This document shows, in pieces, positions 7,635 to 51,084 of a stretch of 64,000 nt of DNA. The position numbers and the translations under genes were made by a program. The stretch comes from Daejeonella oryzae DSM 19973. GTDB lineage: Bacteria > Bacteroidota > Bacteroidia > Sphingobacteriales > Sphingobacteriaceae. The stretch is from the NCBI RefSeq assembly GCF_000422945.1, contig NZ_AUHA01000006.1, positions 62,001 to 126,000 on the forward strand, written 5' to 3'. Under the pieces are notes generated by a model. The model did no database searches. It worked only from the letters and a program-made list of their open reading frames with translations, and was not told the DNA's origin. Numbering within the stretch: position 1 is the stretch's first letter; each line of letters starts with the position of its first letter.

Positions 7635-7654
7635 TTACAAAATATATTTTGTAA
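7635..7654. repeat. Perfect 20-bp palindrome, possible operator
   Basis: TTACAAAATATATTTTGTAA reads the same on both strands with no spacer. It lies 131 nt before the histidine kinase start and 95 nt before the uppS -7 element. A homodimeric regulator could bind it; AT-richness makes chance occurrence somewhat more likely, and no T-run follows, so it is not a terminator. Confidence 0.45.
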
Positions 7655-7748
7655 AAAACTTTCATTAAAGAAATGTTTTTTTGCGTGGCTGATACGATTG
7701 CCTAATAACTCATCGAAATGATATACTAAATAAATGCAAAGTAAGTTC

Positions 7749-7756
7749 TACCTTTG
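7749..7756 (+). promoter_or_regulatory. -7 promoter element of uppS (TACCTTTG)
   Basis: TACCTTTG matches TAnnTTTG exactly. The ATG at 7821 follows 64 nt later, giving a leader of about 60 nt. No TTG is found at the usual -33 spacing. Confidence 0.55.
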
Positions 7757-7820
7757 CGAATTGAAATTTAATACTTTCCCAATCAGTATTATTATTATAA
7801 AGTATGATTAATATGTTTTA

Positions 7821-8561
7821 ATGGGTTTTCTGGAGCAAATAGATATAGAAAAAATACCTCAGCATGTGGCTGTAATAATGGATGGGAACGGGCGCTGGGC
7901 TAAAGAAAAAGGCAAACTCAGAGTATTTGGTCATCAAAATGGTGTGCTGGCAGTTCGTGATACGGTTGAAGGTGCAGTAGAGCTGGGCGTGAAGTATTTA
8001 ACTTTATATGCTTTTTCTACAGAGAACTGGAATAGGCCAAAGCTGGAAGTTTTAGCTTTGATGGAATTGCTTGTTGCTACAATTAATAAAGAAACTAAAA
8101 CGTTGATGAATAACGGCGTTCGGTTGAACGCAATCGGGAACTTAAAATCACTGCCGGAAAAATGTTACCGTCAATTGCAGGAAACCATTGTTAAAACGTC
8201 TCAGAATACTAATTGTACTTTAACTCTTGCCCTTAGTTACAGCTCCAGATGGGAAATTACAAATGCGGCTAAAAATTTAGCTCTTAAAGTAGAACAAGGT
8301 GAATTGAAGGCTTCAGAAATTAATGAAGATATTTTTGCTTCCGAATTGAACACCGCATCTATGCCCGATCCGGAATTAATGATCCGCACCAGTGGTGAGT
8401 TTCGGATCAGTAATTATTTGTTATGGCAATTAGCCTATTCAGAATTATATTTTACCCCAAAACTATGGCCTGATTTCAGACGGGATGATTTATTTGAGGC
8501 TGTACTTGATTATCAGAAACGTGAGAGACGTTTTGGATTAACGAGTGAGCAACTTCCCTGA
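7821..8561 (+). CDS. uppS: Isoprenyl transferase (undecaprenyl diphosphate synthase)
   Basis: cis-Prenyltransferase that extends farnesyl diphosphate with isopentenyl diphosphate to the C55 carrier lipid for peptidoglycan and surface glycans. The 246-aa protein has all family blocks: HVAVIMDGNGRWAKEKG (catalytic Asp of MDGNGRWA), GHQNGV, LYAFSTENWNRP, and the C-terminal PDLMIRTSGE-type region here written PDPELMIRTSGEFRISNYLLWQLAYSELYF with the conserved WP-DF after it. Length is standard. It opens the envelope block uppS-bamA-ompH-ompH-murI, an order conserved in Bacteroidota. Confidence 0.97.
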   Translation: MGFLEQIDIEKIPQHVAVIMDGNGRWAKEKGKLRVFGHQNGVLAVRDTVEGAVELGVKYLTLYAFSTENWNRPKLEVLALMELLVATINKETKTLMNNGVRLNAIGNLKSLPEKCYRQLQETIVKTSQNTNCTLTLALSYSSRWEITNAAKNLALKVEQGELKASEINEDIFASELNTASMPDPELMIRTSGEFRISNYLLWQLAYSELYFTPKLWPDFRRDDLFEAVLDYQKRERRFGLTSEQLP

Positions 8562-8754
8562 AAGAAATAACATCGCAATTAACATTCCCGCAATCAAAAA
8601 TATATGGAGGCTTGAAAAACCTTCAAAATTATAATCAATTAACCTGATGGAATTTTAAAAGCAAGAGATGAATGTACGTATCACATTAGCCGGTTGTAAT
8701 CATCCTCACACCAACTAATTTTTACTTTTAACACTTTTTAACAACTGATTAAGT

Positions 8755-8762
8755 TATTTTAG
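8755..8762 (+). promoter_or_regulatory. -7 element (TATTTTAG) before bamA
   Basis: TATTTTAG is one base from the TAnnTTTG consensus and precedes the bamA ATG by 18 nt. The 219-nt gap behind uppS supports an independent promoter for bamA. No -33 element is obvious. Confidence 0.4.
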
Positions 8763-8780
8763 CACCGTTAAATCCACAAA

Positions 8781-11327: not shown

Positions 11328-11332
11328 TTTGT

Positions 11333-11863
11333 ATGAAGAAAATTCTTTTAACATTATTCTTTGCAGTTATTGGCGTAACCGGTGCTTTTGCCCAGCGTTT
11401 TGCATATGTTGACAGTGAATATATACTGAAACATATTCCCGAATATAATTCGGCTCAAAAGCAATTAGATGCAGTTTCAGCACAATGGCAAAAAGAAGCA
11501 GATGCTAAATTTGCAGATATTGAAAGGTTATACAAGGCTTATCAGGCTGATCAGGTTTTATTAACGGATGATATGCGCAAGCGTCGCGAAAGCGAAATTA
11601 TTGAAAAAGAAAAAGAGGCAAAGGAGTTTCAGCGCATAAAGTTTGGCTTTGAAGGCGAATTATTTCAGCAAAGAAGCAGGCTGATTAAACCTATTCAGGA
11701 AAAGGTGTCTAAAGCTGTACAAGCTTTGGCAGATGATCAGCAGCTGGATATGATTTTTGATAAAAACAGTGAAGTGACGCTATTATTTGCTAATCCGCGT
11801 TTAGATAAAAGCAATGAAGTGATAACCCGGCTGGGGTATAAACCCGGGGTTTTTGTAAAATAG
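11333..11863 (+). CDS. OmpH/Skp family periplasmic chaperone (first copy)
   Basis: 176-aa protein with a signal peptide ending AFAQ (about residue 20). The mature part FAYVDSEYILKHIPEYNSAQKQLDAVSAQWQKEADAKFADIERLYKAYQ starts as OmpH proteins do and continues as a long charged helix pair, then RSRLIKPIQEKVSKAVQALADDQQLDMIFDKNS, the strand that closes the trimer body. Such Skp-type trimers hold unfolded outer-membrane proteins on the way to BamA. It starts 5 nt after the bamA stop, so it is in the same transcript. The second copy downstream is clearly divergent. Confidence 0.9.
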   Translation: MKKILLTLFFAVIGVTGAFAQRFAYVDSEYILKHIPEYNSAQKQLDAVSAQWQKEADAKFADIERLYKAYQADQVLLTDDMRKRRESEIIEKEKEAKEFQRIKFGFEGELFQQRSRLIKPIQEKVSKAVQALADDQQLDMIFDKNSEVTLLFANPRLDKSNEVITRLGYKPGVFVK

Positions 11864-11993
11864 AATAGTCTAAGTTTTTATCACACACCATACAAGAACG
11901 AATAAAGGCAGCATTCTGATCAATACTATTAAAATTAAATATTAAAGGAAAATTTTATATAATCGTAAATAAAAACAAAACAAAAATATACAA

Positions 11994-12551
11994 ATGAGAA
12001 AATTAGTAAAAGTAGCAGTAGTTGCGGTTGGATTATTATTTGCAGGTAACGCAGTAAATGCTCAACAAAAGTTTGGTCATATTAACTCGAGCGACCTTCT
12101 ACAGGCCATGCCCGAAATGAAAACAGCTGATGCAAATTTTCAGACTTTCGCAAAAGCAAAACAAACTGCGTTAGAACAAATGGATGCCGAGCGCCAGAAA
12201 AAAATAGTTTCATATCAGGAAAAAGCGAAAACAATTAGTGAAGCAAACAAAGTAGATGTGGGCAAGCAATTGGAACTTTTAGCTAAGGATATCCAGGATA
12301 TGGAAAAAAGAATTGGAGAAACTCAGGAGAAATCTCAGGAAGAATTAACTGCGAAACGTACTGAACTATACCAGCCGGTATTTAAAAAGGCAGAAGATGC
12401 AGTTAAGGTTGTAGCCAAAGAAAAAGGTTATGCCTACGTGTTTGATGTTTCACAACCCGGAGTAGTTTATTTTGATGGTGGTGATGATCTGTTGGTTGCC
12501 GTAAAAACTAAATTGGGAATCTCTGCATCTGCAGCAGCTCCTAAAAAGTAA
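11994..12551 (+). CDS. OmpH/Skp family periplasmic chaperone (second copy)
   Basis: 185-aa precursor with a signal peptide (VAVVAVGLLFAGNAVNAQ). The mature sequence QKFGHINSSDLLQAMPEMKTADANFQTFAKAKQTALEQM and the long Lys/Glu/Gln helical region are typical of OmpH; LYQPVFKKAEDAVKVVAKEKGYAYVFDVS gives the C-terminal body strand. It is only loosely similar to the copy upstream, so two distinct Skp paralogues are present, a pattern usual in Bacteroidota. A 130-nt gap separates it from the first copy and a strong terminator follows, so it may have its own promoter. Confidence 0.9.
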   Translation: MRKLVKVAVVAVGLLFAGNAVNAQQKFGHINSSDLLQAMPEMKTADANFQTFAKAKQTALEQMDAERQKKIVSYQEKAKTISEANKVDVGKQLELLAKDIQDMEKRIGETQEKSQEELTAKRTELYQPVFKKAEDAVKVVAKEKGYAYVFDVSQPGVVYFDGGDDLLVAVKTKLGISASAAAPKK

Positions 12552-12571
12552 TTATAGGGCTTAATAGCATG

Positions 12572-12604
12572 AAGTGCAAAGAGGAAACTCTTTGCACTTT
12601 TTTT
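12572..12604 (+). terminator. Intrinsic terminator after the ompH genes
   Basis: A perfect 12-bp stem (AAGTGCAAAGAG / CTCTTTGCACTT) with a GAAA loop is followed by a T-run. It ends the bamA-ompH-ompH unit. Confidence 0.92.
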
Positions 12605-12663
12605 ATGCACCATAATCGTATAGCCCCATTTTTTCAATTAATTTTTAAATATTACTTTTATCA

Positions 12664-13470
12664 ATGAGCTCAAACCAACCTATAGGCATATTCGATTCGG
12701 GGATTGGAGGATTAACAGTTGCTAACGCAATTCACAAAATTCTCCCGAATGAACAGCTTATTTATTTTGGTGATACGGCACATTTGCCTTACGGCGATAA
12801 ATCTCCGGAAGCGATCAGATCTTATAGTTTAAAAATTGGCAGGTTTCTGTTAGATCAAAATTGCAAACTCATTGTAATTGCATGCAATACTGCTTCTTCC
12901 CATGCGTATACTAAACTTGTGGAGGCTTTTGCAGATAAAGTTCACATAGTGAATGTTATAGATCCGGTAGTCGATTTTTTGGCAGATAATAAAGCATTTC
13001 AAAAAATTGGGGTAATTGGTACCAAGTCCACTATAAATTCTGGAGTTTACACCAATAAATTAAAAATTGCAGCACCGGCAAAGGAAGTATCTGCATTAGC
13101 AACGCCTTTACTTGCTCCAATGATTGAGGAAGGATTTTATAATAACAACATTAGCCACACGGTTATCAGGTCTTATCTGTCCTCGCCCGAATTATATTCA
13201 ATTGATACGCTCGTACTGGCATGTACCCATTATCCATTGATTCAGAAAGAGATTGATGAATATTTTAATGGAAAGGTAACTATAATTAATACTGCAAAAA
13301 TTGTGGCAGAACATATTAAAAATACCCTTGTAAAGCTTGATCTTTTAAATGGTGGAATTCCGGCAGATCATCAGTTTTTTGTTTCAGATTTCACCTCCTC
13401 TTTTGAAAACAGTACCCGGTTGTTTTTTGGTGAACAAATTCATCTGAAATTAAAAAATATCTGGGAGTGA
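12664..13470 (+). CDS. murI: Glutamate racemase
   Basis: Converts L-glutamate to D-glutamate for peptidoglycan. The 268-aa cytoplasmic enzyme starts with IGIFDSGIGGLTV and has both catalytic cysteines, Cys74 (VIACNTASSH) and Cys187 (LACTHYPLI), together with the FGDTAHLPYGDKS block around residue 36. Size and motifs are standard for MurI. It follows the ompH terminator and so needs its own promoter; only a weak TACTTTTA is visible just upstream. The position beside bamA/ompH is conserved in the phylum. Confidence 0.96.
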   Translation: MSSNQPIGIFDSGIGGLTVANAIHKILPNEQLIYFGDTAHLPYGDKSPEAIRSYSLKIGRFLLDQNCKLIVIACNTASSHAYTKLVEAFADKVHIVNVIDPVVDFLADNKAFQKIGVIGTKSTINSGVYTNKLKIAAPAKEVSALATPLLAPMIEEGFYNNNISHTVIRSYLSSPELYSIDTLVLACTHYPLIQKEIDEYFNGKVTIINTAKIVAEHIKNTLVKLDLLNGGIPADHQFFVSDFTSSFENSTRLFFGEQIHLKLKNIWE

Positions 13471-13536
13471 TCATTTTTTGAACAGCTGAGTTTAAAGCTT
13501 ACGGTAAAATGACTGGTAATTTGTATTTAAAAACCG

Positions 13537-13544
13537 TATTTTTG
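13537..13544 (+). promoter_or_regulatory. -7 promoter element (TATTTTTG) before the PurF-like gene
   Basis: A full TAnnTTTG match 17 nt before the ATG at 13562. The leader would be about 14 nt. Confidence 0.55.
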
Positions 13545-13561
13545 CCCGCTCATTAGTAGCT

Positions 13562-15463
13562 ATGAGCGAACAAATAAAACACGAGTGCGGGGTAGTTCTT
13601 ATCCGCCTTTTAAAACCTCTCTCTTTTTATCAGGAAAAATACGGTACCTCCCTTTATGGGTTGAATAAGCTGTATTTGTTAATGGAAAAGCAGCATAACC
13701 GTGGACAGGATGGAGCCGGTATTGCAACTATAAAACTGGATGTCAAACCCGGAAACCGATATATTAGTCGTTACCGTTCTACCGGAGCAAATGCCGTGGC
13801 AGAGATTTTTGAGTACGTGCAAAATAAATTTGCGGATGTTCAGAAAAATTCTCCCGAGCTTTTGCAGGATGCACAATGGCTTAAAGAAAATATAAGTTTT
13901 ACCGGCGAAGTGTTAATGGGTCATTTGCGTTACGGCACCCACGGTAAAAACAGTATTGAAAGTTGTCATCCATTCCTTCGTCAGAATAACTGGATGACCC
14001 GTAACCTGGTTATCTCTGGTAACTTCAATATGACCAATGTAGATGAACTGCTTGAGCAATTATTCGAACTCGGTCAGCATCCAAAGGAACGTGCCGACAC
14101 AGTTACCGTGCTTGAAAAAATTGGTCACTTCCTGGACACAGAGAATCAGGAACTGTTTGATAAATTTAATAAGGAAGGTTTTTCAAATGCACAGATCAGT
14201 CATGAAATTGCTGATCATCTGGATGTAGCCAAAATACTCCGCCGCTCGGCAAAAAACTGGGATGGAGGATATACAATTAGCGGTATTTTTGGTCATGGTG
14301 ATGCTTTTGTTATGCGTGATCCTGCAGGTATTCGTCCTGCATTTTATTATCAGGATGATGAAATTGTTGTTGTAACATCCGAAAGACCGGCTATTCAAAC
14401 CGCTTTTAATGTTCCTTTAGAAAGTATCAAGGAAATAAAACCCGGCCATGCTCTGATCGTACGTAAAAACGGAGCTATTTCCGAAGAACAATTCCGTGAG
14501 CCTGATGAACAGAAATCATGCTCTTTTGAACGGATCTACTTTTCACGCGGAAGCGATGCCTCTATATACCGTGAGCGAAAGCAATTAGGTCGGTTATTAT
14601 GTCCTCAGATTTTAGAATCTGTTAAACATGATCTTCAGAATACAGTTTTTTCATATATACCTAATACTGCAGAAGTAGCTTTTTATGGAGTGGTAGAAGG
14701 AATAAATAAGTATGTTAAAAATTTCCAGAAAGAGACTTTATTAAATCGTGCCGATAAAATATCTGATGAAGAGTTATCAAAAGTCCTCAGCATGGCTCCA
14801 AGGTTTGAAAAGATTGCCATTAAAGATGTTAAGCTTCGAACGTTTATTACGCAGGACGCAGACAGGCAGGATATGGTTGCTCATGTTTATGATACTACAT
14901 ATGGTGTCGTAAAACGAGGCACAGATAATTTGGTAGTTCTGGATGATTCCATTGTTCGGGGAACTACATTGAAGCAAAGCATTTTAAAAATATTGGATAG
15001 ACTCGGGCCTAAAAAAATTCTGGTTGTTTCATCAGCACCGCAAATTCGTTATCCGGATTGTTATGGTATAGATATGTCGCGTATGGGTGAATTTGTGGCA
15101 TTTGAAGCTGCAATTACCTTGCTTAGAGAAACCGCACAAGAGCATATTATTAAATCTACTTACCAGAAATGTGTGGCCACCCAATATTTGGATAAAGAAG
15201 AAGTTGAAAACTACGTGAAAGCTATTTATGATCCTTTTACTGATGAAGAAATTTCGGCAAAAATCGCAAAGATTATCACTCCTAAAGAAGTAAATGCAGA
15301 GGTTGAAGTAATTTATCAGACTCTTGATAATTTGCATAAAGCCTGTCCGGATCATTTGGGGGATTGGTATTTTTCAGGAAATTATCCCACCAAAGGCGGA
15401 AACAAGGTCGTGAATAAAGCTTTTATGAACTGGGTAGAAGGCAAGAATCAGCGGGCTTATTAA
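13562..15463 (+). CDS. Long PurF-like amidophosphoribosyltransferase
   Basis: 633-aa fusion of a class II glutamine amidotransferase and a phosphoribosyltransferase. A nucleophile Cys9 follows an eight-residue leader (HECGVV) that would have to be removed. Arg123 lies in RYGTHG. RDPAGIRP and CSFERIYFSRGSD mark the interdomain region, and the PRPP loop NLVVLDDSIVRGTT is at 456-469. This is the PurF reaction layout (PRPP + Gln to phosphoribosylamine), but the protein is over 100 residues longer than typical PurF, and the usual HNGNL oxyanion segment reads ISGNF (Ser152-Gly153), so the conserved Asn is Ser. It may be a second, specialised PurF paralogue; a canonical purF is not in the window. 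Confidence 0.8.
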   Translation: MSEQIKHECGVVLIRLLKPLSFYQEKYGTSLYGLNKLYLLMEKQHNRGQDGAGIATIKLDVKPGNRYISRYRSTGANAVAEIFEYVQNKFADVQKNSPELLQDAQWLKENISFTGEVLMGHLRYGTHGKNSIESCHPFLRQNNWMTRNLVISGNFNMTNVDELLEQLFELGQHPKERADTVTVLEKIGHFLDTENQELFDKFNKEGFSNAQISHEIADHLDVAKILRRSAKNWDGGYTISGIFGHGDAFVMRDPAGIRPAFYYQDDEIVVVTSERPAIQTAFNVPLESIKEIKPGHALIVRKNGAISEEQFREPDEQKSCSFERIYFSRGSDASIYRERKQLGRLLCPQILESVKHDLQNTVFSYIPNTAEVAFYGVVEGINKYVKNFQKETLLNRADKISDEELSKVLSMAPRFEKIAIKDVKLRTFITQDADRQDMVAHVYDTTYGVVKRGTDNLVVLDDSIVRGTTLKQSILKILDRLGPKKILVVSSAPQIRYPDCYGIDMSRMGEFVAFEAAITLLRETAQEHIIKSTYQKCVATQYLDKEEVENYVKAIYDPFTDEEISAKIAKIITPKEVNAEVEVIYQTLDNLHKACPDHLGDWYFSGNYPTKGGNKVVNKAFMNWVEGKNQRAY

Positions 15464-40904: not shown

Positions 40905-41231
40905 TTAAGATGCAACAGAGCCCATTATCGGAGCATGGGTAATTTCACTTATATCCTGAAGAATATCCCTTTCTGAGAAATTAAAATTACTTAGGGCAGG
41001 ATGTGAAAGGACAGATTCAACCAAAGGACTGGTTTTAAATGTTTGCAATGAGTCTTCATCTTTGAACAAGTATACAGCCCCGGCTTCTTTCGTTTCATCA
41101 TTAATTAACCAAATTTTCCAAATGCATCCTGGTACATCTGCAAATGACTGAGCAAGCTGGGCAGTCGTTTTTTCATACTCTTCGCGGCTTACGCTGAAGT
41201 TGAAATTGGTAATAAGAATTTTCTGTGCCAT
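40905..41231 (-). CDS. YdhR family putative monooxygenase
   Basis: 108-aa single-domain protein of the dimeric alpha/beta-barrel type. ILITNFNFSVSREEYEKTTAQLAQSFADVPGCIWKIWLINDETKEAGAVYLFKDEDSLQTFKTSPLVESVLSHPALSNFNFSERDILQDISEITHAPI matches the YdhR family: a PGCIWKIW(L) strand, the AGAVYLFKD segment and the final ITHAP-type end. YdhR proteins are thought to be monooxygenases of aromatics, but the function is unproven. ATG 41231 is used; a GTG two codons upstream (41237) is possible. Between it and the folC end lies a 267-nt AT-rich gap with no feature I can support. Confidence 0.8.
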   Translation of the reverse strand: MAQKILITNFNFSVSREEYEKTTAQLAQSFADVPGCIWKIWLINDETKEAGAVYLFKDEDSLQTFKTSPLVESVLSHPALSNFNFSERDILQDISEITHAPIMGSVAS

Positions 41232-41498
41232 AATCACTAATTTAAAATTAAGTTAATCGTAAATTGTTAACCGACTTTATTTAGTTAACCTGTTGATTTT
41301 CATAAAGTTTCACATTTAATGGAATTAGTTTGACAATGGAATTTTGTGCCAAAGCGAACAACTCTTAATCCATTTAAATACTTGGATCTCAATCCTGATA
41401 AGGTTCAAAGAAAAGTAATGATTGAATTTAAAATATTATTTAGACTATAATATTTTAATAATCAGAAAGTAATCGGGTTGAAAAATTCAGGTCACCGG

Positions 41499-42842
41499 TT
41501 ATTGCAAAACTTCAGCAACCACAAAAGTGCTTCCACCTACAAACACCAGATCGCGGGCACATGCATTTTTTTTTGCCGTCTTCAGCGCTTCATTAACTGA
41601 TGGGTAAACCTGGCCAAAAAGATTTAGAATTTTAGCTTCTGCAGCAAGTTCTTCTGCAGCTTTGGCTCTCGGAATGTCGGGCTGGCAAAAATAATATGTA
41701 GCATTCACAGGCAAAAGTTTAAGAATGTTACTGATGTCTTTATCTTTTACCATTCCAATCACCATGTGGAGCTTTTCATACGGAAGAACATTAATATTTT
41801 TTAATACTTCGCGGATTCCATCTTCGTTGTGGCCGGTATCGCAAATCACCAGCGGATTACTGTTTATCGTTTGCCATCGGCCCATCAATCCCGTGAGGGA
41901 TTTAACCTCTTTTAGCGCAGATTTAATATGCTCTGCAGTAATGATAAAGCCCAGCTTTCTCAACTGCTCTACCGAACTTAAAACTGTAGCCAGATTCTTA
42001 AGCTGGTAATGCCCTGTCAGATCGAGTTCATAATTTGTTTTAGAATTTTTCTGGACATCTGAAGAATTACATGGCACGACGCTTAATTCTAGAAAATGCT
42101 GACTGATATCAGACAAGTTCGGATGCTTTCTGTCGGATTCTTTAGATTCTACCTTTTCAATTTTCCATTCATCCGATGCAAAGGTTAGTTCAGAATGGCA
42201 ATCAGCGGCCTTCTTCAAAAATGTTGCTGCTGTTTCACGCTGTCTTTGGCCAATCACTACGGGAACTCCTGGTTTGATTATTCCAGCTTTTTCAAAAGCA
42301 ATCTGCTCCAGCTGATCTCCCAGTATATTTACATGATCTAATCCAATGTTGGTTATTACAGAAAGTAAAGGATTAATGATATTGGTAGAGTCAAGCCTCC
42401 CGCCAAGGCCGACCTCAATTACTGCAATATCAATCTTCTGCAAAGCGAAATGTTGAAAAGCCATCGCCACGGTGACCTCGAAAAAGGATGGTTCAATTTT
42501 CTCGATCAGATCTTTTTGCCCGGAAACAAATTCAATAACATCATTCTCACTTATCATTTCACCGTTAATGCGTATCCTTTCTCTGAAATCACGTAAGTGG
42601 GGAGAAGTATATAAGCCGGTTTTATATCCTGCTGTATGTAAAATGGCAGCCAGCATATGCGAAGTAGAACCTTTACCATTTGTACCGCCTACATGTATAC
42701 TTTTAAATTTTTGCTGAGGATTATTAAGATGATTGCAGAAAGTTATGATATTATCCAGGTTGGCCTTGTAAGCAGAACTTCCCACACGGGTAAACATTGG
42801 AAGTCTGGAGAATAGGTAGGAGAGAGTCTGCTGGTAGTTCAT
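41499..42842 (-). CDS. folC: Folylpolyglutamate / dihydrofolate synthase
   Basis: 447-aa cytoplasmic Mur-ligase-type enzyme adding glutamates to (dihydro)folate. The P-loop VGGTNGKGSTSHMLA appears early, followed by YTSPHLRDFRERIRING, EVGLGGRLDSTNII (the FolC fingerprint), ITNIGLDHVNILGDQLEQIAFEKAGIIKPGVPVV, and the C-terminal GMVKDKDI and CDTGHNEDG. Length is normal. ATG 42842 is preferred to the TTG at 42875 because the conserved YQQTLSYLFSRLPMF begins there. It is the last gene of the seven-gene minus-strand operon, 73 nt after tonB; the link with the Ton genes is conserved but probably not functional. Confidence 0.94.
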   Translation of the reverse strand: MNYQQTLSYLFSRLPMFTRVGSSAYKANLDNIITFCNHLNNPQQKFKSIHVGGTNGKGSTSHMLAAILHTAGYKTGLYTSPHLRDFRERIRINGEMISENDVIEFVSGQKDLIEKIEPSFFEVTVAMAFQHFALQKIDIAVIEVGLGGRLDSTNIINPLLSVITNIGLDHVNILGDQLEQIAFEKAGIIKPGVPVVIGQRQRETAATFLKKAADCHSELTFASDEWKIEKVESKESDRKHPNLSDISQHFLELSVVPCNSSDVQKNSKTNYELDLTGHYQLKNLATVLSSVEQLRKLGFIITAEHIKSALKEVKSLTGLMGRWQTINSNPLVICDTGHNEDGIREVLKNINVLPYEKLHMVIGMVKDKDISNILKLLPVNATYYFCQPDIPRAKAAEELAAEAKILNLFGQVYPSVNEALKTAKKNACARDLVFVGGSTFVVAEVLQ

Positions 42843-42915
42843 CTGAAAATTATCATCCGAATAATGAGGGATCAATAACCTTTGCAGATCCTCAGCTGCG
42901 GTCTGATCAGTGTTA

Positions 42916-43743
42916 TTATTTAACCTTAAAATTAAACATCACTACTCCAATCTGAACGTCGGGAGCAGATTCTAATTGATTCAGTTTTGCTCCCAAAACC
43001 GCCTTTTCACATTTACGCCAAAGGGCAAGATCAGATAGGGTAGTTCCTTTAGCTCCTGCACGGGCATATACAACTTCTCCGGTTTTATCAACTCTGATCT
43101 CTACTGCAATTTTCCCAGAACTTTGTCCTTGGTCTTCAATGGAAGGAATACTAACAAAACGGCGGTTGGCTAAAGACAATCTGACCCCGCCAAAGCCGGA
43201 TCCACCCTCGCCATAATTAGGAGCCAGCGGATCTCCGTCACGGCTTCCCTGATTTCCGGCAACAGTTCCAGTGCCATCGCCTTTTCCACTTCCATTATTT
43301 TTTTTGCCGGTATATAAAGCGTTTGTGTTTACAACGGGTTTACTTTCTTTGGTAGCTTCACTGGTTGAAGGATTAGTGCTCGAACTTTTATCTTTTGTAA
43401 CAATGCTTGGAGCGTCTTCCATATCCTGGGTAACAACTGATTTATCGCTAACTTCGGAGGAAGGGCTTTTTACAGGATCTGTTGATGGAACTACTTTATC
43501 AGGCATTGAATTATTTGCATTCGGATCTGTTGACGGTTCTTCAATACTCATGTAGTCATCGCCCATTCCTACATCAGATGTTCCGTAATTCACAATGATA
43601 CCGCCTACTCCAACTTCTTCGGGTGCCTCAACGCGGCTGGCGATAACGAAAAAACTGAGCAACACGAAGCTTACCATAATACCCGTGGAAATTGCCAAAG
43701 CTTTAGGATAATTGTTTTCTTCAGGTTGACGGTAATCTATCAT
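42916..43743 (-). CDS. TonB family energy transducer
   Basis: 275-aa protein with a single N-terminal membrane helix (about 17-36, ALAISTGIMVSFVLLSFFVIAS). The middle 150 residues are rich in Ser, Thr, Asp and Gly rather than Pro, a low-complexity periplasm-spanning linker. The C-terminal 90 residues (ANRRFVSIPSIEDQGQSSGKIAVEIRVDKTGEVVYARAGAKGTTLSDLALWRKCEKAVLGAKLNQLESAPDVQIGVVMFNFKV) form a TonB/TolA-type domain that would contact outer-membrane partners. The start codon overlaps the exbD stop by 4 nt. It is the energy-transmitting partner of ExbB/ExbD at this locus. Confidence 0.92.
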   Translation of the reverse strand: MIDYRQPEENNYPKALAISTGIMVSFVLLSFFVIASRVEAPEEVGVGGIIVNYGTSDVGMGDDYMSIEEPSTDPNANNSMPDKVVPSTDPVKSPSSEVSDKSVVTQDMEDAPSIVTKDKSSSTNPSTSEATKESKPVVNTNALYTGKKNNGSGKGDGTGTVAGNQGSRDGDPLAPNYGEGGSGFGGVRLSLANRRFVSIPSIEDQGQSSGKIAVEIRVDKTGEVVYARAGAKGTTLSDLALWRKCEKAVLGAKLNQLESAPDVQIGVVMFNFKVK

Positions 43744-44138
43744 TTTTTAGTTTCTGTTGCTAAAACAAGTTTTATTTTCAATTTGTTGGCTATATCTGTT
43801 AGATTAACCACATTCTCTATCGCGATAGTTCGGTCTGCGTATAAAATAACAGTAAGATCTGGAGATTCTTTCTGATAAACTTCTATTTCTGCCTGAAGCT
43901 GATCAAAATTTACCTGCTTTTTCTCAACAAAATATTCTAAGTCTTTCGTTATGGAAACATTAATCGTCTTTTTCGGAATGGATTGCCCGGAATTCGATCG
44001 CGGCAGAAATAACTTCACTACGTTAGGATTGGCAACTGCTGAAGCCAGTAAAAAGAACAGCAGCAGGAAAAACATAATGTCATTTAAAGCCGATGTATGA
44101 ACTTCTACAGCCCCTCTTTTTCTCTTTCTTAAATTCAT
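43740..44138 (-). CDS. exbD: ExbD/TolR biopolymer transport protein
   Basis: 132-aa protein: a cytoplasmic stretch, one membrane helix (about 17-40, ALNDIMFFLLLFFLLASAVANPNVV) with the conserved Asp that carries the proton path, and a periplasmic domain (FVEKKQVNFDQLQAEIEVYQKESPDLTVILYADRTIAIENVVNLTDIANKLKIKLVLAT). Start and stop overlap its neighbours by 4 nt each, so exbB-exbD-tonB is strictly coupled. It forms, with ExbB, the proton-driven motor energising TonB. Confidence 0.93.
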   Translation of the reverse strand: MNLRKRKRGAVEVHTSALNDIMFFLLLFFLLASAVANPNVVKLFLPRSNSGQSIPKKTINVSITKDLEYFVEKKQVNFDQLQAEIEVYQKESPDLTVILYADRTIAIENVVNLTDIANKLKIKLVLATETKK

Positions 44139-44836
44139 TTGCCGGGTTCTTCTAACAAGTCAATAAACTCAATAACATCCGTTTCCATTTTCAGAATAAT
44201 ACGATCAACCATGATATTTAGTATATGGTACAATACATAAGCAACAATACCAATGATCAGTCCGGTTGCGGAGGTGATCATTTTCGTATATAATCCTCCG
44301 GATATGGTTCCAATTTCAATAATTCCTTTAATGGAAACTTCATGAAAAATGGCAATTACCCCGATAATTGTTCCAACGAAACCGAGCATGGGAGCAATAC
44401 CTGCAATAATCCCCAGGATACTGATGTTTTTCTCAAGCTTAGATACCTCAAGTTTACCCACATTCTCAATGGCGCCTTCAATATCTTTAATCGGGCGGCC
44501 AATACGCAATAATCCTTTTTGCAGCATTCGGCCCAGCGGAGTATTGCTGTTTCTGCAGATGGCTACAGCGGTGTCAAGTTTGCCGGCAATAACACTTTGC
44601 TTTACCTGTGCCATCAGGTTTGATTCATATTTTGATGCTTTGCGGATTGTTAAATAACGTTCAACAAAAATCACTAATCCCATAAATGCTAATAAGGTCA
44701 GCGGGATCATTACCCATCCACCTTTAAATAAAAGGTCTATAAAACGTAATTCCTGTCCGGGTTGAACAACCTGCATGGCTGCTGCTGCTGTATCTGTAAT
44801 AGGTGTTAGTGTGTCGACTTGAAGTAGGAACATCAT
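44135..44836 (-). CDS. exbB: ExbB/TolQ/MotA family proton channel protein
   Basis: 233-aa inner-membrane protein with three helices (about 37-60, 141-163, 183-205). The N-terminal TM block GGWVMIPLTLLAFMGLVIFVERYLTI and the paired TM helices with LGIIAGIAPMLGFVGTIIGVIAIF and the Thr/Gly-rich ISGGLYTKMITSATGLIIGIVAYVLYHI are the ExbB/TolQ signature. It provides the channel pentamer around ExbD. The gene begins 2 nt after the SPOR gene stop and overlaps exbD by 4 nt. Confidence 0.93.
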   Translation of the reverse strand: MMFLLQVDTLTPITDTAAAAMQVVQPGQELRFIDLLFKGGWVMIPLTLLAFMGLVIFVERYLTIRKASKYESNLMAQVKQSVIAGKLDTAVAICRNSNTPLGRMLQKGLLRIGRPIKDIEGAIENVGKLEVSKLEKNISILGIIAGIAPMLGFVGTIIGVIAIFHEVSIKGIIEIGTISGGLYTKMITSATGLIIGIVAYVLYHILNIMVDRIILKMETDVIEFIDLLEEPGK

Positions 44837-44838
44837 CT

Positions 44839-45882
44839 CTAATTTGTTTTCTTTGGTTTAACCCTGGTCATCCAGGCATCTTTATTTAAATCTTTTCTGA
44901 TACGTATTAATTCTAGCTCTGCTTGCTGCTCATCAGTAAATGAACCCAAACTTACTTTGATTTTTGCACCCGGCATATGCTCTACTATTTTAGCGTATAA
45001 TCCTTTAGCTGTAATCGCTTTTACATACGTTTCTGCTTCTTTACGCTTAGCAAATGCCGCACCTATTATTTCAAATGTTGCGATGCTTTGATTGGGATTA
45101 CTAATTTGAGTAGAATCTTTTGCGACTACCGTTACCGGATTCATTGCCACAGAAGTATCCCGAACAGTGGTTTTGGCAGAATCGGTTACAACTACTGCCG
45201 GAACAGATTTTTTAATGGGCTCAATTGGTATTTTACTATTCAGTTCGGCTACATTAGGTTTTAATAAAACCTGAAATAATTGGGGATTAAATTGATATAA
45301 AGCCAATACAGAAAGGATAATAATGGAGGCAGCAATAAACAGCTTAGTGCCAAACTTCATACCTGTTTCTGCTTCTTCGACCACCTGAATATCAGCTTCA
45401 GGATAAGAAGTGTAAGAGCTGGGAGTGACTATAGCAGCCTCTTCAGAAACTGAATTAACATCTTCAATTTTTTTGGTATATATTTCCTTTACCGGGAATA
45501 ATCCAAAATAGTTTGTTGCCTGCTCTAACGAAGGAACCGGCTTAAACCGGAAACCATCCTGATTTTTATCTAAAGTTCCCAGACCCTGCAATTCTGCATG
45601 CCCTTCGTGATCAAGTAAGCTGACGATCTGTTCAACAAATTTACTGACGAAATATTTTGCTGAATTTATTGATATGTTTTTCTTTCGACTGATATATTCC
45701 GCAAGAACTTCGTGGTCGTCTGTATGGCGGCTGAAAGATAGATTCTCCGAAGGAGGAAAGTACAAATCAGACCCCGGGTTATGAAAACCATTTACTTTTA
45801 TCTTTGAAAATGTCCCAAAATACGGAACACTTACCTCATCAGTCTGATGCAAAAGTTCCGCAATAAAAAAGGAAATATCCAT
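44839..45882 (-). CDS. HU-CCDC81 and SPOR domain membrane protein
   Basis: 347-aa protein with an unusual domain order. Residues 1-130 are two HU-like CCDC81-type domains: the first begins with FIAELLHQTDEVSVPYFGTFSKIKV, the second with LAEYISRKKNISINSAKYFVSKFVEQIVSLLDHEGHAELQGLGTL. A membrane helix follows at about 180-197 (KLFIAASIIILSVLALYQF), then a Pro/Lys/Thr-rich periplasmic linker, and a SPOR domain (about 268-343: FEIIGAAFAKRKEAETYVKAITAKGLYAKIVEHMPGAKIKVSLGSFTDEQQAELELIRIRKD) that binds denuded peptidoglycan. The cytoplasmic HU-like part may bind DNA or protein. It is between the barrel gene and exbB in the operon. Confidence 0.87.
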   Translation of the reverse strand: MDISFFIAELLHQTDEVSVPYFGTFSKIKVNGFHNPGSDLYFPPSENLSFSRHTDDHEVLAEYISRKKNISINSAKYFVSKFVEQIVSLLDHEGHAELQGLGTLDKNQDGFRFKPVPSLEQATNYFGLFPVKEIYTKKIEDVNSVSEEAAIVTPSSYTSYPEADIQVVEEAETGMKFGTKLFIAASIIILSVLALYQFNPQLFQVLLKPNVAELNSKIPIEPIKKSVPAVVVTDSAKTTVRDTSVAMNPVTVVAKDSTQISNPNQSIATFEIIGAAFAKRKEAETYVKAITAKGLYAKIVEHMPGAKIKVSLGSFTDEQQAELELIRIRKDLNKDAWMTRVKPKKTN

Positions 45883-45930
45883 TCGGGTAAAGATAATTTA
45901 TAATTCTATACAGACAAATAATAACATAGG

Positions 45931-47613
45931 TTAGAAGGAGAAATTAAAGCCTCCGAACACATTTAAACCCAATTTTTGATAATATAAATACTGCTGATAG
46001 GAAGTGCCGAAGATATTGTTGGCACGTACGTGTAAGCCTATTTTGTCATTGATTTGGTATGCAGCGCCGGCGCTCATGTCTACAAAACTGTTGATAGTTA
46101 CAATTTTATTTTCTGCCAGCGGAGTAAATACGGTAGTATTCGCCTTAGTTTCGCCATTGAAAAATACTTCTGCGTCGAAGGAAATTTTTGGAGTAACCCT
46201 GGCTCTCAGATTGGATGTTAATCTAAAACCGGGTTTAAACCAGGCTTCCTGTTCAGTTTTAAGCGTATAATTTACGGCTTCTGCTTTTCCGCTAACATCT
46301 ATAAAATCTGATGCTTTAATGCTGATCTCTCCCTGGAAACCAAGCAATTTGCTGTTCCCCTCATCATAAACAACATTAAAACGACTTACTTTAAAAGGAT
46401 CATTTTCAAATAGTGGAAGGTCCTGAATTGTCTTGTAATAGGCCATCGCTTTAAAGCCAAAACCGGCTCCGGCATTTCCTTTTACTCCTCCGTAAATATT
46501 CATCTTTTCTACAGCATTCTTTAATGTCACATTTTTATTGAGATAAAAGTTTTCGTTGCTGAGGTCTCTGATGGTGGTTTTTAATACATCTCCGCTAATT
46601 CCACCAAATAAGGTAGCATATTCCTGAGCAATTGGAAACTCTGCAGATACCGCTGGTAAAATATTCAAGCGGCTAGTACTGCCAAACTCTTGCACCAGGT
46701 TAAGTCCAAGGTTTAAAACAAATCCATTTCCCTGATATTTAATAAAAGGATTGGCTTTTAAAATATTATTCTTGATTGCGTAAAGAGAATCTTTAGAGCT
46801 TGTAAAATCGGTAGAAGCGCCCAAACCAATACTAAAACTGTTAAATGCTTTGTTTAAATATCCGCTTAAAGCGAAGGTGCTTTCACGACCGTCAAAAATA
46901 TTATTGAATACGTATCCGGAAGCTTTAACCGCGTAATTTAAAAGATCTGTATCCTCAGAATAATTATTCATCAATTCTCCTTCGGCTTCAAAAAGATTAA
47001 ATCGCTGCTTATCCGCAGCAGTTGAAACCGTTGAGAAGGCAGGATCAAAACCATAGAAATAGCTTGATTTTCTATCGTAAGAAAGCTTTCCACTCATGCT
47101 GTTTTGATCTCTTATGCTTTTTCCGAAAACAGAAGCCTGCTGATTAGAAAATTGTTGTTTTTCTATATTTCCCCGTTGCGAGTTGTGTTTAAGATATAAG
47201 CCTGCTTGCAAAGCTTCATCCTGACCGTTATTAAAGTACATTTCTGCAAGGCCTGTATTGAAATTCCCGGCTCCGATCTTTAAGTAATTATTCTGCAATA
47301 CAGCTTGTCTTTCATCGGCTAATTTCTGGGCCTGCAACTCTTTTATATTCGAGTTGAGTTCCAGTTTTTTATCCATAATTGTATAGCTTAAAACCGGCCT
47401 GAAAGGTTTGGTATCGTTTAAATCCGGACTTCTCCTGATTTTAACAGCCTCAGCCAGGATAGGCTTGTATGGGCGTACAACTTCTATTTCTTCAGTAAGA
47501 GTTCCTTTTGCAGGCGCAGGTTTAGTTTCTTCTTTTTTATCCTGTGCAAAAACAGAACCTGAGTAAGCGATTAATGAAAAGGTAATTGCAATTTTTATAT
47601 GTGGAATAGTCAT
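45931..47613 (-). CDS. TonB-dependent receptor-like outer-membrane barrel protein
   Basis: 560-aa protein with a signal peptide (IAITFSLIAYSGSVFAQ), a charged N-terminal region (KEETKPAPAKGTLTEEIEVVRPYKPILAEAVKIRRSPDLNDTKPFRPVLSYTI) where the last part resembles a TonB-box-like or partner-binding segment, and about 450 residues of beta strands with aromatic girdles ending VFGGFNFSF (terminal Phe, an outer-membrane barrel mark). There is no plug domain or CarboxypepD-like domain, so it is not a standard SusC/TonB receptor. Its operon with ExbB/ExbD/TonB suggests it is the specific partner of this Ton complex. Confidence 0.8.
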   Translation of the reverse strand: MTIPHIKIAITFSLIAYSGSVFAQDKKEETKPAPAKGTLTEEIEVVRPYKPILAEAVKIRRSPDLNDTKPFRPVLSYTIMDKKLELNSNIKELQAQKLADERQAVLQNNYLKIGAGNFNTGLAEMYFNNGQDEALQAGLYLKHNSQRGNIEKQQFSNQQASVFGKSIRDQNSMSGKLSYDRKSSYFYGFDPAFSTVSTAADKQRFNLFEAEGELMNNYSEDTDLLNYAVKASGYVFNNIFDGRESTFALSGYLNKAFNSFSIGLGASTDFTSSKDSLYAIKNNILKANPFIKYQGNGFVLNLGLNLVQEFGSTSRLNILPAVSAEFPIAQEYATLFGGISGDVLKTTIRDLSNENFYLNKNVTLKNAVEKMNIYGGVKGNAGAGFGFKAMAYYKTIQDLPLFENDPFKVSRFNVVYDEGNSKLLGFQGEISIKASDFIDVSGKAEAVNYTLKTEQEAWFKPGFRLTSNLRARVTPKISFDAEVFFNGETKANTTVFTPLAENKIVTINSFVDMSAGAAYQINDKIGLHVRANNIFGTSYQQYLYYQKLGLNVFGGFNFSF

Positions 47614-47620
47614 CAGCTTA

Positions 47621-50600
47621 TTACTTAATATTCAATTTCTCCAGTTTCTCTTTGGCAGTGGGTATGATGTCATCATTTTTACCCTCATAATTATCAAGGA
47701 TACTTTGTAAAGTGCTTTTAGCCTGGAAAACATCATTCAGCGCCAGATAATTATCCGCCAGCAGAATAAAGCTTTTGGCTACCCAATAATCATGCGATGG
47801 CATTTTGTTAATCAAGTCAAACGTAGTTTTTTGAGAGGTTTTATAATCTCCCTTAGCATACTGCAAAAGTGCAACATTGTATTTTGCCTCTGCTGCCGCG
47901 ATAGTTTGAGTTTTATCAACAACCTGGTTAAATTCTTTGATGGCCATTGCTGTATCTGCCTTAATCAGATAAGCTTTACCGGCATACAAACTTGCCCTGA
48001 ATTTTTCTTCATCCGAAGATTTTTCTGAGGTTTTAATCAGTTCAACATATTTCAGCGTTTCATCAGGCATTTCCGTGTTTGCATACGCTTCCATTAAATT
48101 GTTAATGGCAAAGCCATAATTGGCTTTATATTCTGAGGTCAGTTCAAGTTTTTTTAGATGAACAATAGCTTCATTATATTTTTTCTGAGAGAGATATATT
48201 CTTGAAATACTCATCAGGGCTTTTTCAGTGTATTCGCTGGTCCAATCATTCAAAATAAATTCATAATCCGGAATAGCTTCGTCCGGGCGGTTTAGTCTGA
48301 CTAAACTCTCAGCTCTGACAAACTTCGCCTGCTTTTCGTGAATGGCTTTCGGGAATTTATCAAAGTAAGCATTGATTGCTTCAAACGTTCCCTGGTAATC
48401 TCCCTTTAAATAGCGGTTGTTAGCGGCCTGATAAGTAATGTTATCCTGTTCAGAAGTGCTCAGGTTGCCTATGCCTGTACCGTTTGCGTAAGCAAGAAAT
48501 CCATCAGCATCCGCTTTATCCAAATAAATATTTTTTATAGACTCCAGAGCTTGCTTTGCTTCATCAGTGGTAGAATAATCTTTCACTACTCTTTTAAATG
48601 TTTCTAAAGCTGCATCATCCTGATCCTGGTTGTATTGCACCAAACCGATGGTTACAAGTGCACGGGGAACATAGCTGCTTCGCGGATATTTCGAAATCAG
48701 CGTACTCAGATCATTCTTGGATTTATCAAAATCACCTTTTACAAAATAAGTATAGGCGATCTCAAAACCGGCATCATCCGCGTAATTTGATTTTGGGAAT
48801 TGCTTGAGAAGCGATTGGTGAGTTGCTATTTTAGCATCGTTTTGACTTTGCAGTCCCTGGATCATTCCGCGTTGAAATAATGCGTAATCTTCTCCCGAAG
48901 CGTTGGATGCAATAATCTTATTGTAACTGGCTAATGCACTTCCGTAATCCTTTAATACAAAATAGGAATCTGCAAGACGTAAAGTTGCATCATTAATGGT
49001 ATTTCTGTCTTTTTCTGATCCTTGTAAGAAACGTTCAAAATAGGTGGATGCCGTTTTGTAATTTTCATTTTCAAATGCCGCATACGCTAAAGCATAGTTT
49101 GCGAAATTGTAAACTTCTGTTTTACGTGCCGCAGGCATGGCAAGGAATTTTTCGAAATTATCTACCGATTCTCCAAACTTGCGAACTTCATACATAGCCT
49201 CTGCCAGCCAATACGTTGATAATGCTTCAATATCAGCATCCACCGCATTATTATTAGAACGCATGAAGACAGATATTGCATTTTGAAAAGCTCTTTCGTT
49301 ATAAAACTCAAGTCCGCGGTAATAGGTTACTTTTTGATAAGCCTCTTTTGCATTCTGATTTTTATTCGGAATACTTTCCAGGATGTCTATAGCATCTTTA
49401 TAATTTTTTGTGGTTAATAAAATCTCACCCAAAAGGGTTTTGGCTTCATCAATCCGTTTAGAACGGGGATAACTTTTTATAAATTCCTGGGCTGCATCTA
49501 AAGCCACCTGGTGAAACTCAAGCTCGTAAGATAATTTTGCATAATTAAATAATCCCTCTTCCTGCAAAGATTTATCAAATGTTAATTTGGATGCCTTAAA
49601 GAAAGCGCTTCTGGCCGATTGTTTATTATCTGTCTTTAAAAATGATTCGCCCAAAGCGATCATTCCGCTTTGATAATATTCATCCGGAGTATCCAGTTTT
49701 TCAAGTTCGGTTATCGCATTTGAATATTCTTTGAGCTTATAATACGTATAACCTATCTGGTAACTATCCTGGTTGTTTTGGGTCTCACCTTTATCTTTAG
49801 CCTGAAAACGTTTGTAATATATTCCGGCATTTATGTAATCAGATTTCGCGAAAAAAGAAGCGGCCACAATGCGGAACATTTCTGTTTCATATTGCTGATT
49901 TGTGCTTCGCAAAATCGGAAGCGTGTATTTTAGTACATCATCATAGCGCTTATCAAGGAAATATAAAGCTGAAATATAATAGGGGTAAGTGTTTTCGTAG
50001 GTTTTTGAACCTTTTAATTTTTCAAATTCTGTTAAAGCAGTTTTATAATCAGCGCTTAAATAATTCAGGTAAGCGTAGTAATAAATAGAGGCTTCTTTGT
50101 AAGGTGTATTTTCATCTTTCAGCCTTCCGAATAAAGGTTCTGCATTGGAGTAATCTTTGGTTTCAAAATAAGAATAACCCAGTTTAAACCGATATTCTGA
50201 ACTTTCTTTAGCTGATAATGAATTCTGATTAATTTTTTTAAACCATTCTATTGCTTTGGGATAGTTTTTCTGAGAATAATAAGAACGACCCACCTGGTAA
50301 TAGGCCATTTTTGCATTTGCATTTACCGGATGATCTGCAATAAATTTAAGGAACAATCCTTCAGCGTCCTGGTTGCCTAATTCTAAAGCGCATAAAGCTT
50401 TATAATATTCGGCATTTTCTTTTAAAAGACTTATATCCTTACTGTTCTGCGAAACTGCAGAAGGCAGAATTTGCCAGTTTTCTACTTTACTGAATTGCTC
50501 GGAGGCCGCAACATATTTCTTCTTCTCTAATAGTTCCAATCCGCTTTTATAATTCTGATTTAAAGTAAACCAGGATGTTAATTGTGCTTGTGCCTTGAAA

Positions 50601-50647
50601 GAAAATAGAATGAGTACAAGGAGGGGTAAAGTATAATGTCTGAGCAT
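47621..50647 (-). CDS. Large TPR protein of the Ton operon
   Basis: 1008-aa secreted protein: signal peptide (LPLLVLILFSFKAQAQ) and then almost wholly TPR-like helix pairs. Examples are YYQVGRSYYSQKNYPKAIEWFKKINQ, YRFKLGYSYFETKDYSNAEPLFGRL, YQIGYTYYKLKEYSNAITELEKLD, RLADSYFVLKDYGSALASYNKII, FEIAYTYFVKGDFDKSKNDLSTLI and YNVALLQYAKGDYKTSQKTTFDLI, about 20 repeats. It has no enzyme domain. A superhelix of this size in the periplasm probably scaffolds partners, here the barrel and the TonB complex. It is the first gene of the operon, 7 nt before the barrel gene, with a consensus -7 element upstream. Confidence 0.88.
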   Translation of the reverse strand: MLRHYTLPLLVLILFSFKAQAQLTSWFTLNQNYKSGLELLEKKKYVAASEQFSKVENWQILPSAVSQNSKDISLLKENAEYYKALCALELGNQDAEGLFLKFIADHPVNANAKMAYYQVGRSYYSQKNYPKAIEWFKKINQNSLSAKESSEYRFKLGYSYFETKDYSNAEPLFGRLKDENTPYKEASIYYYAYLNYLSADYKTALTEFEKLKGSKTYENTYPYYISALYFLDKRYDDVLKYTLPILRSTNQQYETEMFRIVAASFFAKSDYINAGIYYKRFQAKDKGETQNNQDSYQIGYTYYKLKEYSNAITELEKLDTPDEYYQSGMIALGESFLKTDNKQSARSAFFKASKLTFDKSLQEEGLFNYAKLSYELEFHQVALDAAQEFIKSYPRSKRIDEAKTLLGEILLTTKNYKDAIDILESIPNKNQNAKEAYQKVTYYRGLEFYNERAFQNAISVFMRSNNNAVDADIEALSTYWLAEAMYEVRKFGESVDNFEKFLAMPAARKTEVYNFANYALAYAAFENENYKTASTYFERFLQGSEKDRNTINDATLRLADSYFVLKDYGSALASYNKIIASNASGEDYALFQRGMIQGLQSQNDAKIATHQSLLKQFPKSNYADDAGFEIAYTYFVKGDFDKSKNDLSTLISKYPRSSYVPRALVTIGLVQYNQDQDDAALETFKRVVKDYSTTDEAKQALESIKNIYLDKADADGFLAYANGTGIGNLSTSEQDNITYQAANNRYLKGDYQGTFEAINAYFDKFPKAIHEKQAKFVRAESLVRLNRPDEAIPDYEFILNDWTSEYTEKALMSISRIYLSQKKYNEAIVHLKKLELTSEYKANYGFAINNLMEAYANTEMPDETLKYVELIKTSEKSSDEEKFRASLYAGKAYLIKADTAMAIKEFNQVVDKTQTIAAAEAKYNVALLQYAKGDYKTSQKTTFDLINKMPSHDYWVAKSFILLADNYLALNDVFQAKSTLQSILDNYEGKNDDIIPTAKEKLEKLNIK

Positions 50648-50669: not shown

Positions 50670-50677
50670 CAAAAATA
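50670..50677 (-). promoter_or_regulatory. -7 promoter element (TATTTTTG) of the TPR/Ton operon
   Basis: Exact TAnnTTTG match on the minus strand, 22 nt before the ATG at 50647. It would drive all seven genes down to folC. Confidence 0.55.
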
Positions 50678-50775: not shown

Positions 50776-51084
50776 CTACCCGTTCTGACTGGATTTTTTA
50801 ATAAACTTCCAGTATTGTCTTTCGTTGGAATTCCAGTGATAAAAGCCGTAAGCAAATCCTGAGATTAAGGATACTACAATCAGGTTAATGCAAAATTCCA
50901 ATAAATGTTTAAAGCTGATGAAGGCATACGTGAGATCGCCAATAATGAAAAAATTGGTTAAATGAACCAGCACCACGAAAGGAATGGCGAAATTCTTAAC
51001 AGCAATCATAAATTTTTGGCCCCAGCTCCATTTCTTTCGAGCTACGCTCCAATATCTCACAAAGTTTTGTTCAGCAGTTGTCAT
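50776..51084 (-). CDS. Small membrane protein behind pyrB
   Basis: 102-aa protein with two hydrophobic segments (about 32-51 AIPFVVLVHLTNFFIIGDLTY and 64-84 EFCINLIVVSLISGFAYGFY) and basic, aromatic termini (ARKKWSWGQKF, YWKFIKK). I do not recognise a family. Its ATG is the base directly downstream of the pyrB stop, so it is co-translated with pyrB. The sequence is compatible with an inner-membrane protein with both ends cytoplasmic. No link to pyrimidine synthesis can be seen. Confidence 0.75.
   Translation of the reverse strand: MTTAEQNFVRYWSVARKKWSWGQKFMIAVKNFAIPFVVLVHLTNFFIIGDLTYAFISFKHLLEFCINLIVVSLISGFAYGFYHWNSNERQYWKFIKKSSQNG

Follow-up and report, generated by a model that had tools for sequence, protein, structure and literature searches.

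The Tol-Pal system (TolQRA-TolB-Pal-CpoB) and the Ton system are the described machines nearest to an operon that we analysed in Daejeonella oryzae DSM 19973. The operon lies in a window of 64,000 nucleotides (contig NZ_AUHA01000006.1, positions 62,001 to 126,000), and all coordinates given here are positions in this window. At 41499-50647, seven minus-strand open reading frames (ORFs) with tight spacing encode a tetratricopeptide repeat (TPR) protein, an outer-membrane barrel, a protein with two HU-like domains, a transmembrane (TM) segment and a SPOR domain, ExbB, ExbD, a TonB-like protein and FolC.

Like Tol-Pal, the operon combines a motor of the same families, driven by the proton-motive force, with a trans-periplasmic transducer, a periplasmic TPR partner and an outer-membrane anchor. 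In contrast to Tol-Pal, it has neither TolB nor Pal, its anchor is a transporter-type barrel, its TPR protein has about 1000 aa rather than the 269 aa seen in one Tol-Pal locus (L120), and the C-terminal domain of its transducer is nearer to TonB. With the Ton system and its transporters (FhuA, BtuB), it shares the ExbB and ExbD families, a TonB-like C-terminal domain, a transporter-type barrel and, in some lineages, a TonB-box-like N-terminus. It differs from them in that the barrel has no plug and the operon includes TPR and SPOR proteins.

Other systems resemble single parts of the operon. Polysaccharide exporters such as BcsC, AlgK/AlgE and PgaA likewise pair a long TPR superhelix with a barrel, whereas the window operon adds a Ton motor and a SPOR protein, and its barrel best matches TonB-dependent transporters. 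The HU-CCDC81/SPOR proteins of Bacteroidota also join the HU-CCDC81 Pfam domains to SPOR, but here such a protein is found within a Ton-motor operon with a barrel and a TPR protein. A 2025 study (PMC12204202) detected no tol-pal loci in Bacteroidetes and expects further outer-membrane-stabilising systems. The same text puts forward PorE as an answer to the missing Tol-Pal, which makes it comparable with our operon; as described there, however, PorE is a lipoprotein composed of parts that resemble CpoB, TolB, a carboxypeptidase and Pal, and it has no barrel. The freely accessible literature searched, by title and opening lines of the abstract, yielded no description of the present operon.

The barrel and its N-terminal segment

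The Pfam scan of the window barrel gave no match. Its AlphaFold2 model, built from 27 sequences (pLDDT 79), leaves residues 19-107 disordered, mostly with pLDDT below 50, and the strands assigned by DSSP span 110 to 559. Superimposing the model on known transporters with VIA-align gave Z 21.9 for FhuA (3.5 A, 443 residues) and Z 21.8 for BtuB (3.7 A, 411 residues). All 50 matches listed by Foldseek are TonB-dependent transporters, with FpvA as the best (3.1e-17). Meanwhile, the barrel-family profile matches the PfeA barrel (2.3e-10), and PF00593 is detected in three of the 27 family members. No plug domain was matched in the window barrel or in any of these 27 members. Based on the model, the protein is a transporter-type barrel rather than a normal TonB receptor, and it has no plug, as an initial annotation of the window had noted. 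Its modelled fold suggests derivation from a TonB-dependent transporter through plug loss.

The disordered segment raises the question of a TonB box. Shortly C-terminal to the signal peptide, stretches such as EEIEVVRPYKP (window), SEEIVVTTAYKP and PQDIEIRSEF can be recognised by eye in many lineages, and outside the window's class N-terminal stretches such as ELPDFVITGK are seen in the same way. In 20 receptors encoded by the window's genome, the TonB box reads L-x-E-V-V-V-x-G or similar. A scoring matrix made from these 20 boxes, with TPR proteins as controls, reached p<=0.05 in 18 of 68 barrels versus 3 of 61 controls, and p<=0.01 in 7 of 68 versus 0 of 61, the barrels being mutually related and hence not independent. 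Judging from this sequence likeness, a TonB box is likely in barrels outside the window's class; in the window's own lineage the candidate stretch resembles one weakly. A single motif for all lineages was also considered and rejected: its Gibbs score exceeded that of shuffles (390 vs 312 +/- 6), but it mixed unlike sites.

Distribution of the operon genes and of TolB

Co-conservation across Bacteroidota had been set beforehand as a test of the operon's unity. We sampled 198 genomes of the phylum and 197 of the window's class. In the phylum sample, the TPR protein was called at E<=1e-60, and the barrel list was taken down to E 2.5e-17, leaving out weaker or unlisted rows; the barrel threshold in the class sample was 1e-15. 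The TPR protein is present in 142 of the 198 phylum genomes, and all 142 also carry the barrel. Each of the 139 genomes in which a barrel was matched at this threshold has the TPR protein, and the remaining three carry a diverged barrel beside the TPR gene. The two genes are adjacent in 112 genomes (109+3) and lie apart, both retained, in 30 (25 of family f22, four of f20, one of f4). At the fetched f22 and f20 loci (eight and one), the barrel is accompanied by ExbB and a gene of the HU/SPOR family in 9/9, and by ExbD and TonB in 8/9. Among the class genomes, 187 have the TPR protein, 184 the barrel and 182 both.

The order TPR-barrel-SPOR-ExbB-ExbD-TonB recurs well beyond the window's class. 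We fetched 40 loci around HU-SPOR matches and 40 around barrel matches, hand-picked for family spread; lineage names such as Flavobacteriaceae-like or Chlorobi-like are inferred labels. Upstream of the barrel, 39 of the 40 barrel-centred loci have the TPR gene, with an intervening ORF in two; L094 has no TPR gene. BLAST clustering of 70 loci recovered the barrel in 68, the TPR protein in 61, ExbB in 37, ExbD in 32 and TonB in 38, the last split into two clusters (24 and 14); at L070 and L071 the simple ORF caller took antisense ORFs instead of the barrels, which the barrel search does list. Across these loci, TPR and barrel each cover 30 family labels (two of them assigned by us, for named loci), ExbB covers 15 and ExbD 13, and no other neighbour cluster goes beyond 6 of 30. 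TonB is kept without ExbBD in L006, L056 and L100. In contrast to TonB-dependent transporters, the window-type barrel usually has one orthologue per genome. Where a second TPR gene and a second barrel are both listed (G128, G206, G243, G257), they again form an adjacent pair; next to the second TPR copy of G002, no barrel is listed. The 1709-aa frame of G101 was considered as a natural TPR-barrel fusion and discarded, as it merely overlaps the barrel frame. The recurrence over the 70 loci exceeds chance, and this co-conservation bears out the proposed link of a dedicated Ton motor (ExbBD-TonB) with a barrel that has no plug, a SPOR protein of the inner membrane and a large TPR scaffold in the periplasm.

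The distribution of TolB provides the contrast with Tol-Pal. As the query we used the full-length TolB of family f16; TolB_N alone is insensitive and was found in 5 of 43 f16 genomes. Full-length TolB (E below 1e-150) occurs in 43 of the 198 phylum genomes, these being every f16 genome sampled, and never together with the TPR protein (0/43). The barrel query finds weak partial matches in f16 genomes (best 3.3e-15, frames of 622-648 aa where listed), which are taken for ordinary receptors. Outside f16, weaker TolB matches are mostly partial and fall largely in the propeller. TolB_N has no match in the window's genome (G000), and its seven matches outside f16 (five from G047, G085, G135 and G176, plus G253 and G258) were rejected as four protein kinases and three CsgG-like proteins. 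The TPR-repeat serine/threonine kinases of G135, G085 and G176, with TolB_N-like segments, can mimic TolB in a domain search.

We notice two further features of these genomes. The f16 locus L120 (G010:C1:304000-323900) holds, at 7437-14805, a canonical-looking Tol-Pal set in the family that has no TPR protein: MotA_ExbB, ExbD, TonB_2, TolB, two OmpA-family genes and a YbgF-like TPR gene, with the OmpA-family genes adjoining each other and flanked by tolB and the YbgF-like gene. In genomes lacking the TPR protein and the barrel, the best TPR-query matches are partial, several of them to lipoproteins that we take to resemble PorW/SprE. At the loci L146-L158, from genomes with neither system, other long TPR proteins are encoded in frames of about 610-1220 aa; several of them begin with a lipobox-like sequence and have a YHNFTAFFNAYYN-type stretch.

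Partner proteins and neighbouring genes

The features of the operon are collected in Table 1. All seven ORFs and their lengths, including that of the TPR protein, agree with the initial annotation. The junctions measure 7 nt between TPR and barrel, 48 between barrel and SPOR, 2 between SPOR and ExbB, -4 between ExbB and ExbD and again between ExbD and TonB, and 40 between TonB and FolC. The sequence proposed as the promoter is present, but the TAnnTTTG pattern is not enriched in the window (76 seen vs 86 expected), which makes it weak evidence of a promoter.

Table 1. Features of the operon, in window coordinates
Feature	Position	Strand	Basis
TPR protein, 1008 aa, secreted	47621..50647	-	ORF, Pfam TPR, structure model
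Outer-membrane barrel, 560 aa, TonB-dependent-transporter type, no plug	45931..47613	-	ORF, AlphaFold2, Foldseek, VIA
Barrel domain, residues 110-559	45937..47286	-	DSSP of AlphaFold2 model; VIA vs FhuA
Candidate TonB-box-like stretch TEEIEVVRPYKP, barrel residues 40-51, near mature N-terminus	47461..47496	-	p 0.14 in window lineage alone
Inner-membrane HU-HU-TM-SPOR protein, 347 aa	44839..45882	-	Pfam
ExbB/TolQ-family motor subunit, 233 aa	44135..44836	-	PF01618 2.5e-21
ExbD/TolR-family motor subunit, 132 aa	43740..44138	-	PF02472 6.4e-24
TonB-like force transducer, 275 aa	42916..43743	-	Family profile vs solved TonB C-terminal domains
folC	41499..42842	-	NCBIfam TIGR01499 380.6 bits; Mur-ligase Pfam domains
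Promoter-like TATTTTTG (TAnnTTTG)	50670..50677	-	Present

The TPR protein starts like a type I signal peptide (MLRHYTLPLLVLILFSFKAQAQ), and no lipobox was seen in it. Its structure model (mean pLDDT 91) has about 54 helices, corresponding to about 26 repeats. Its NCBIfam scores, which are sums over repeats, are higher than the cut-offs for YbgF/CpoB (189.8 vs 90.1 bits) and for BamD (106 vs 81.4). The search for a specific relative ended without one, as the sequence and Foldseek matches are TPR proteins of many kinds.

In the SPOR protein, HU-like domains lie at residues 5-52 and 59-115, the TM segment at 181-198 and the SPOR domain at 275-337. The HU-like character claimed for the cytoplasmic domains holds at the Pfam cut-off for the second, HU-CCDC81_bac_2 (40.6 vs 35 bits), and not for the first, HU-CCDC81_bac_1 (23.6 vs 26). 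The SPOR domain of the window is barely over its own cut-off (21.9 vs 21 bits). We considered the gene 3' of the barrel in 52 loci (51 plus the window). Seven loci have no gene longer than 180 aa there, and L084, L087, L090 and L117 (a metabolic or peptidase gene) and L106 (ExbB itself) were excluded. Among the 40 genes scanned, one of which (L113) is a pantoate ligase, SPOR was found in 31 (E<=0.001) and HU-CCDC81_bac_2 in 15. HU and SPOR are uncoupled in some loci: L100, L112 and L115 have SPOR without an HU domain, and L043 has HU without SPOR. In the Flavobacteriaceae-like loci L047-L050 and L077, the HU-SPOR gene stands alone beside a recurring 146-171-aa ORF, and the fetched stretch holds no motor genes.

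By NCBIfam, the motor subunits are nearest to TolQ (59.8 bits, 221 needed) and ExbD (44.4 bits, 216 needed). The window's genome contains one further MotA_ExbB gene. The TonB-like protein, which gave no match in the Pfam scan, comprises a TM segment (residues 15-36), a low-complexity linker and a C-terminal domain (189-275). For its family profile, the top matches are TonB C-terminal domains of solved structure (7.6e-5), with TolA weaker (1.4e-3), and TonB_C is detected in 11 of 19 family members, the window's not among them. The TonB/TolA TM histidine appears in 18 of the 41 proteins listed, with one (L110) misread from a non-TM stretch.

FolC is probably a passenger at the operon end, because folC trails the operon in just 5 of 30 family labels. 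Its start is probably codon 12 (MNYQQTL..., cf. L004), which is likelier than the TTG. Just 3' of folC, a same-strand 110-aa ORF (40905-41237) encodes a ydhR-type putative mono-oxygenase (PF08803, 1.4e-21). On the other side, between pyrB and the TPR gene, a 102-aa ORF (50776-51084) shows hydrophobic stretches by eye; it has no Pfam or NCBIfam match, and the fetched loci gave one weak match (1.6e-4, in L057).

Beyond the operon, the neighbours vary. An FtsE-like gene stands divergently beside the TPR gene in L084, L089, L117 and L090 (all three barrel-centred f4 loci and one f6 locus), and the two such genes scanned score 242-245 bits against an FtsE cut-off of 264.85. L065 carries an FtsK gene together with LolA-like and flippase-like genes ahead of the barrel; ORFs that match FtsK and flippase in size take the same position in six of the seven remaining f22 loci, L063 being the exception. 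A nucleotide-sugar dehydrogenase gene (scanned in L115) follows the SPOR-TonB end in L100, L115, L159 and other f21, f23 and f31 loci, as a cluster of 7 loci. Directly 3' of the HU gene of a TPR-barrel cluster, L043 carries a PorP/SprF-family gene (L043:8250-9260).

Proposed function and its alternatives

From the folds, families, gene order and distribution observed here, we infer, tentatively and with a little under even confidence, a Tol-Pal-like system powered by a Ton motor and acting at SPOR-marked sites, where it would tie or constrict the outer membrane. Of the three roles that the initial annotation proposed, outer-membrane stability or constriction has the best support: the TPR protein and full-length TolB never share a genome among the 198 sampled, SPOR is the most frequent domain of the third gene (31 of 40), and ftsE or ftsK genes occur as neighbours in some lineages. 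A more exact version is possible, and we hold it more loosely. According to it, a transporter that lost its plug and kept its TonB box serves as a mechanical handle, on which the Ton motor pulls through or beside the 26-repeat TPR protein, constricting the outer membrane at SPOR-marked septa in place of Tol-Pal.

The steps of such a machine may be pictured as follows. ExbB and ExbD, as their families suggest, would draw on the proton gradient to drive the TonB-like protein, which would span the periplasm and pull the disordered N-terminus of the barrel. Operons without their own ExbBD would be served by a shared motor. The TPR superhelix, judging from its co-occurrence with the barrel, would bind it from below and would probably either shut the wide pore or couple the barrel to the cell wall. 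Since a barrel this wide would do harm if it stayed open, either a partner or the N-terminal segment should close it, and the TPR protein is the natural candidate. The HU-TM-SPOR protein, in which the SPOR domain is detected, may bind denuded septal peptidoglycan and place the machine there. The complex would hold or draw in the outer membrane during division.

Several observations weigh against this Ton-powered, Tol-Pal-like reading. The first group concerns the proteins themselves. The TonB-box score of the window barrel is not significant (p 0.14), and the Gibbs search found no single barrel N-terminal motif across lineages. The motor subunits lie far below all NCBIfam subtype cut-offs, and the TM histidine is absent from the window's TonB-like protein. 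The second group concerns the distribution. In the class sample, five genomes have the TPR protein only, and two, assembled in 300 and 360 contigs, have the barrel without the TPR protein. At the thresholds used, both are missing from 13 of 198 phylum genomes (four f11, four f27, two f14 and one each of f18, f36 and f39) and from 8 of 197 class genomes. Those 13 also have no full-length TolB, and the eight gave no match to TolB_N, the sole TolB search made there. Flavobacteriaceae-like genomes keep the TPR-barrel pair with no adjoining motor gene. The TolB contrast comes from the single clade f16, so that it counts as one contrast rather than 43 and may reflect one event, and the Bacteroides ihuae control genome matches TolB_N over the cut-off in the domain search. 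The operon has no TolB, and the search for Pal, which covered the operon products, found no OmpA-family match among them. Finally, no phenotype for the operon genes was found in the literature searched, and PorE is proposed as the tether between outer membrane and peptidoglycan in the 2025 study (PMC12204202).

A different arrangement of the same parts would be a machine that exports or assembles an outer-membrane lipid, lipoprotein or polysaccharide, with the TPR protein as conduit, the barrel as exit and TonB as gate-opener, on the pattern of the polysaccharide exporters that pair TPR and barrel. The TPR protein accompanies the wide barrel nearly everywhere, L065 and related loci of f18, f20 and f22 have LolA-like and flippase-like genes ahead of the barrel, and the nucleotide-sugar dehydrogenase lies 3' of the operon in f21, f23 and f31. 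However, these outside neighbours are not conserved over the phylum, where no other cluster exceeds six family labels, and it is not evident what SPOR and HU domains would do in such a machine. We consider this explanation unlikely.

The operon might also anchor the chromosome during segregation and division, with the HU domains holding DNA or a nucleoid protein and the SPOR domain and motor tying it to the septal wall and the outer membrane. HU-CCDC81 proteins have reportedly been predicted to act in chromosome partition. The HU-CCDC81_bac_2 matches in 15 of 40 third genes and the FtsK gene near the operon in L065 fit this idea, but three of the four third genes of other lineages scanned singly have SPOR without an HU domain, and DNA binding by the HU domains is a supposition. 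The explanation is improbable.

Dedicated nutrient uptake by a shrunken TonB receptor with its own Ton motor would account for the transporter-type barrel and the TonB motor, but is highly improbable for a barrel that has no plug, is spread over very different families, is tied in its operon to TPR and SPOR proteins and occurs in a genome with 37 plug matches besides. An accessory role in type IX secretion or gliding, the former raised by the initial annotation, is no more credible: the window's genome has GldL, the TPR protein weakly matches the PorW/SprE model of NCBIfam (66 bits, 250 needed) and L043 has a PorP/SprF gene just 3' of its HU gene, but the distribution disfavours type IX secretion, because GldL is over its cut-off in just 49 of 198 genomes (52 at E<=0.001), all of the window's class, versus 142 for the TPR protein, and 93 of those 142 have no GldL over the cut-off.

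If the Ton-powered, Tol-Pal-like reading is true, the barrel would be, to our knowledge, the first case of a transporter barrel turned from an import gate into a force anchor. The operon is a concrete and very widespread candidate for one of the further outer-membrane-stabilising systems that the 2025 study (PMC12204202) expects.

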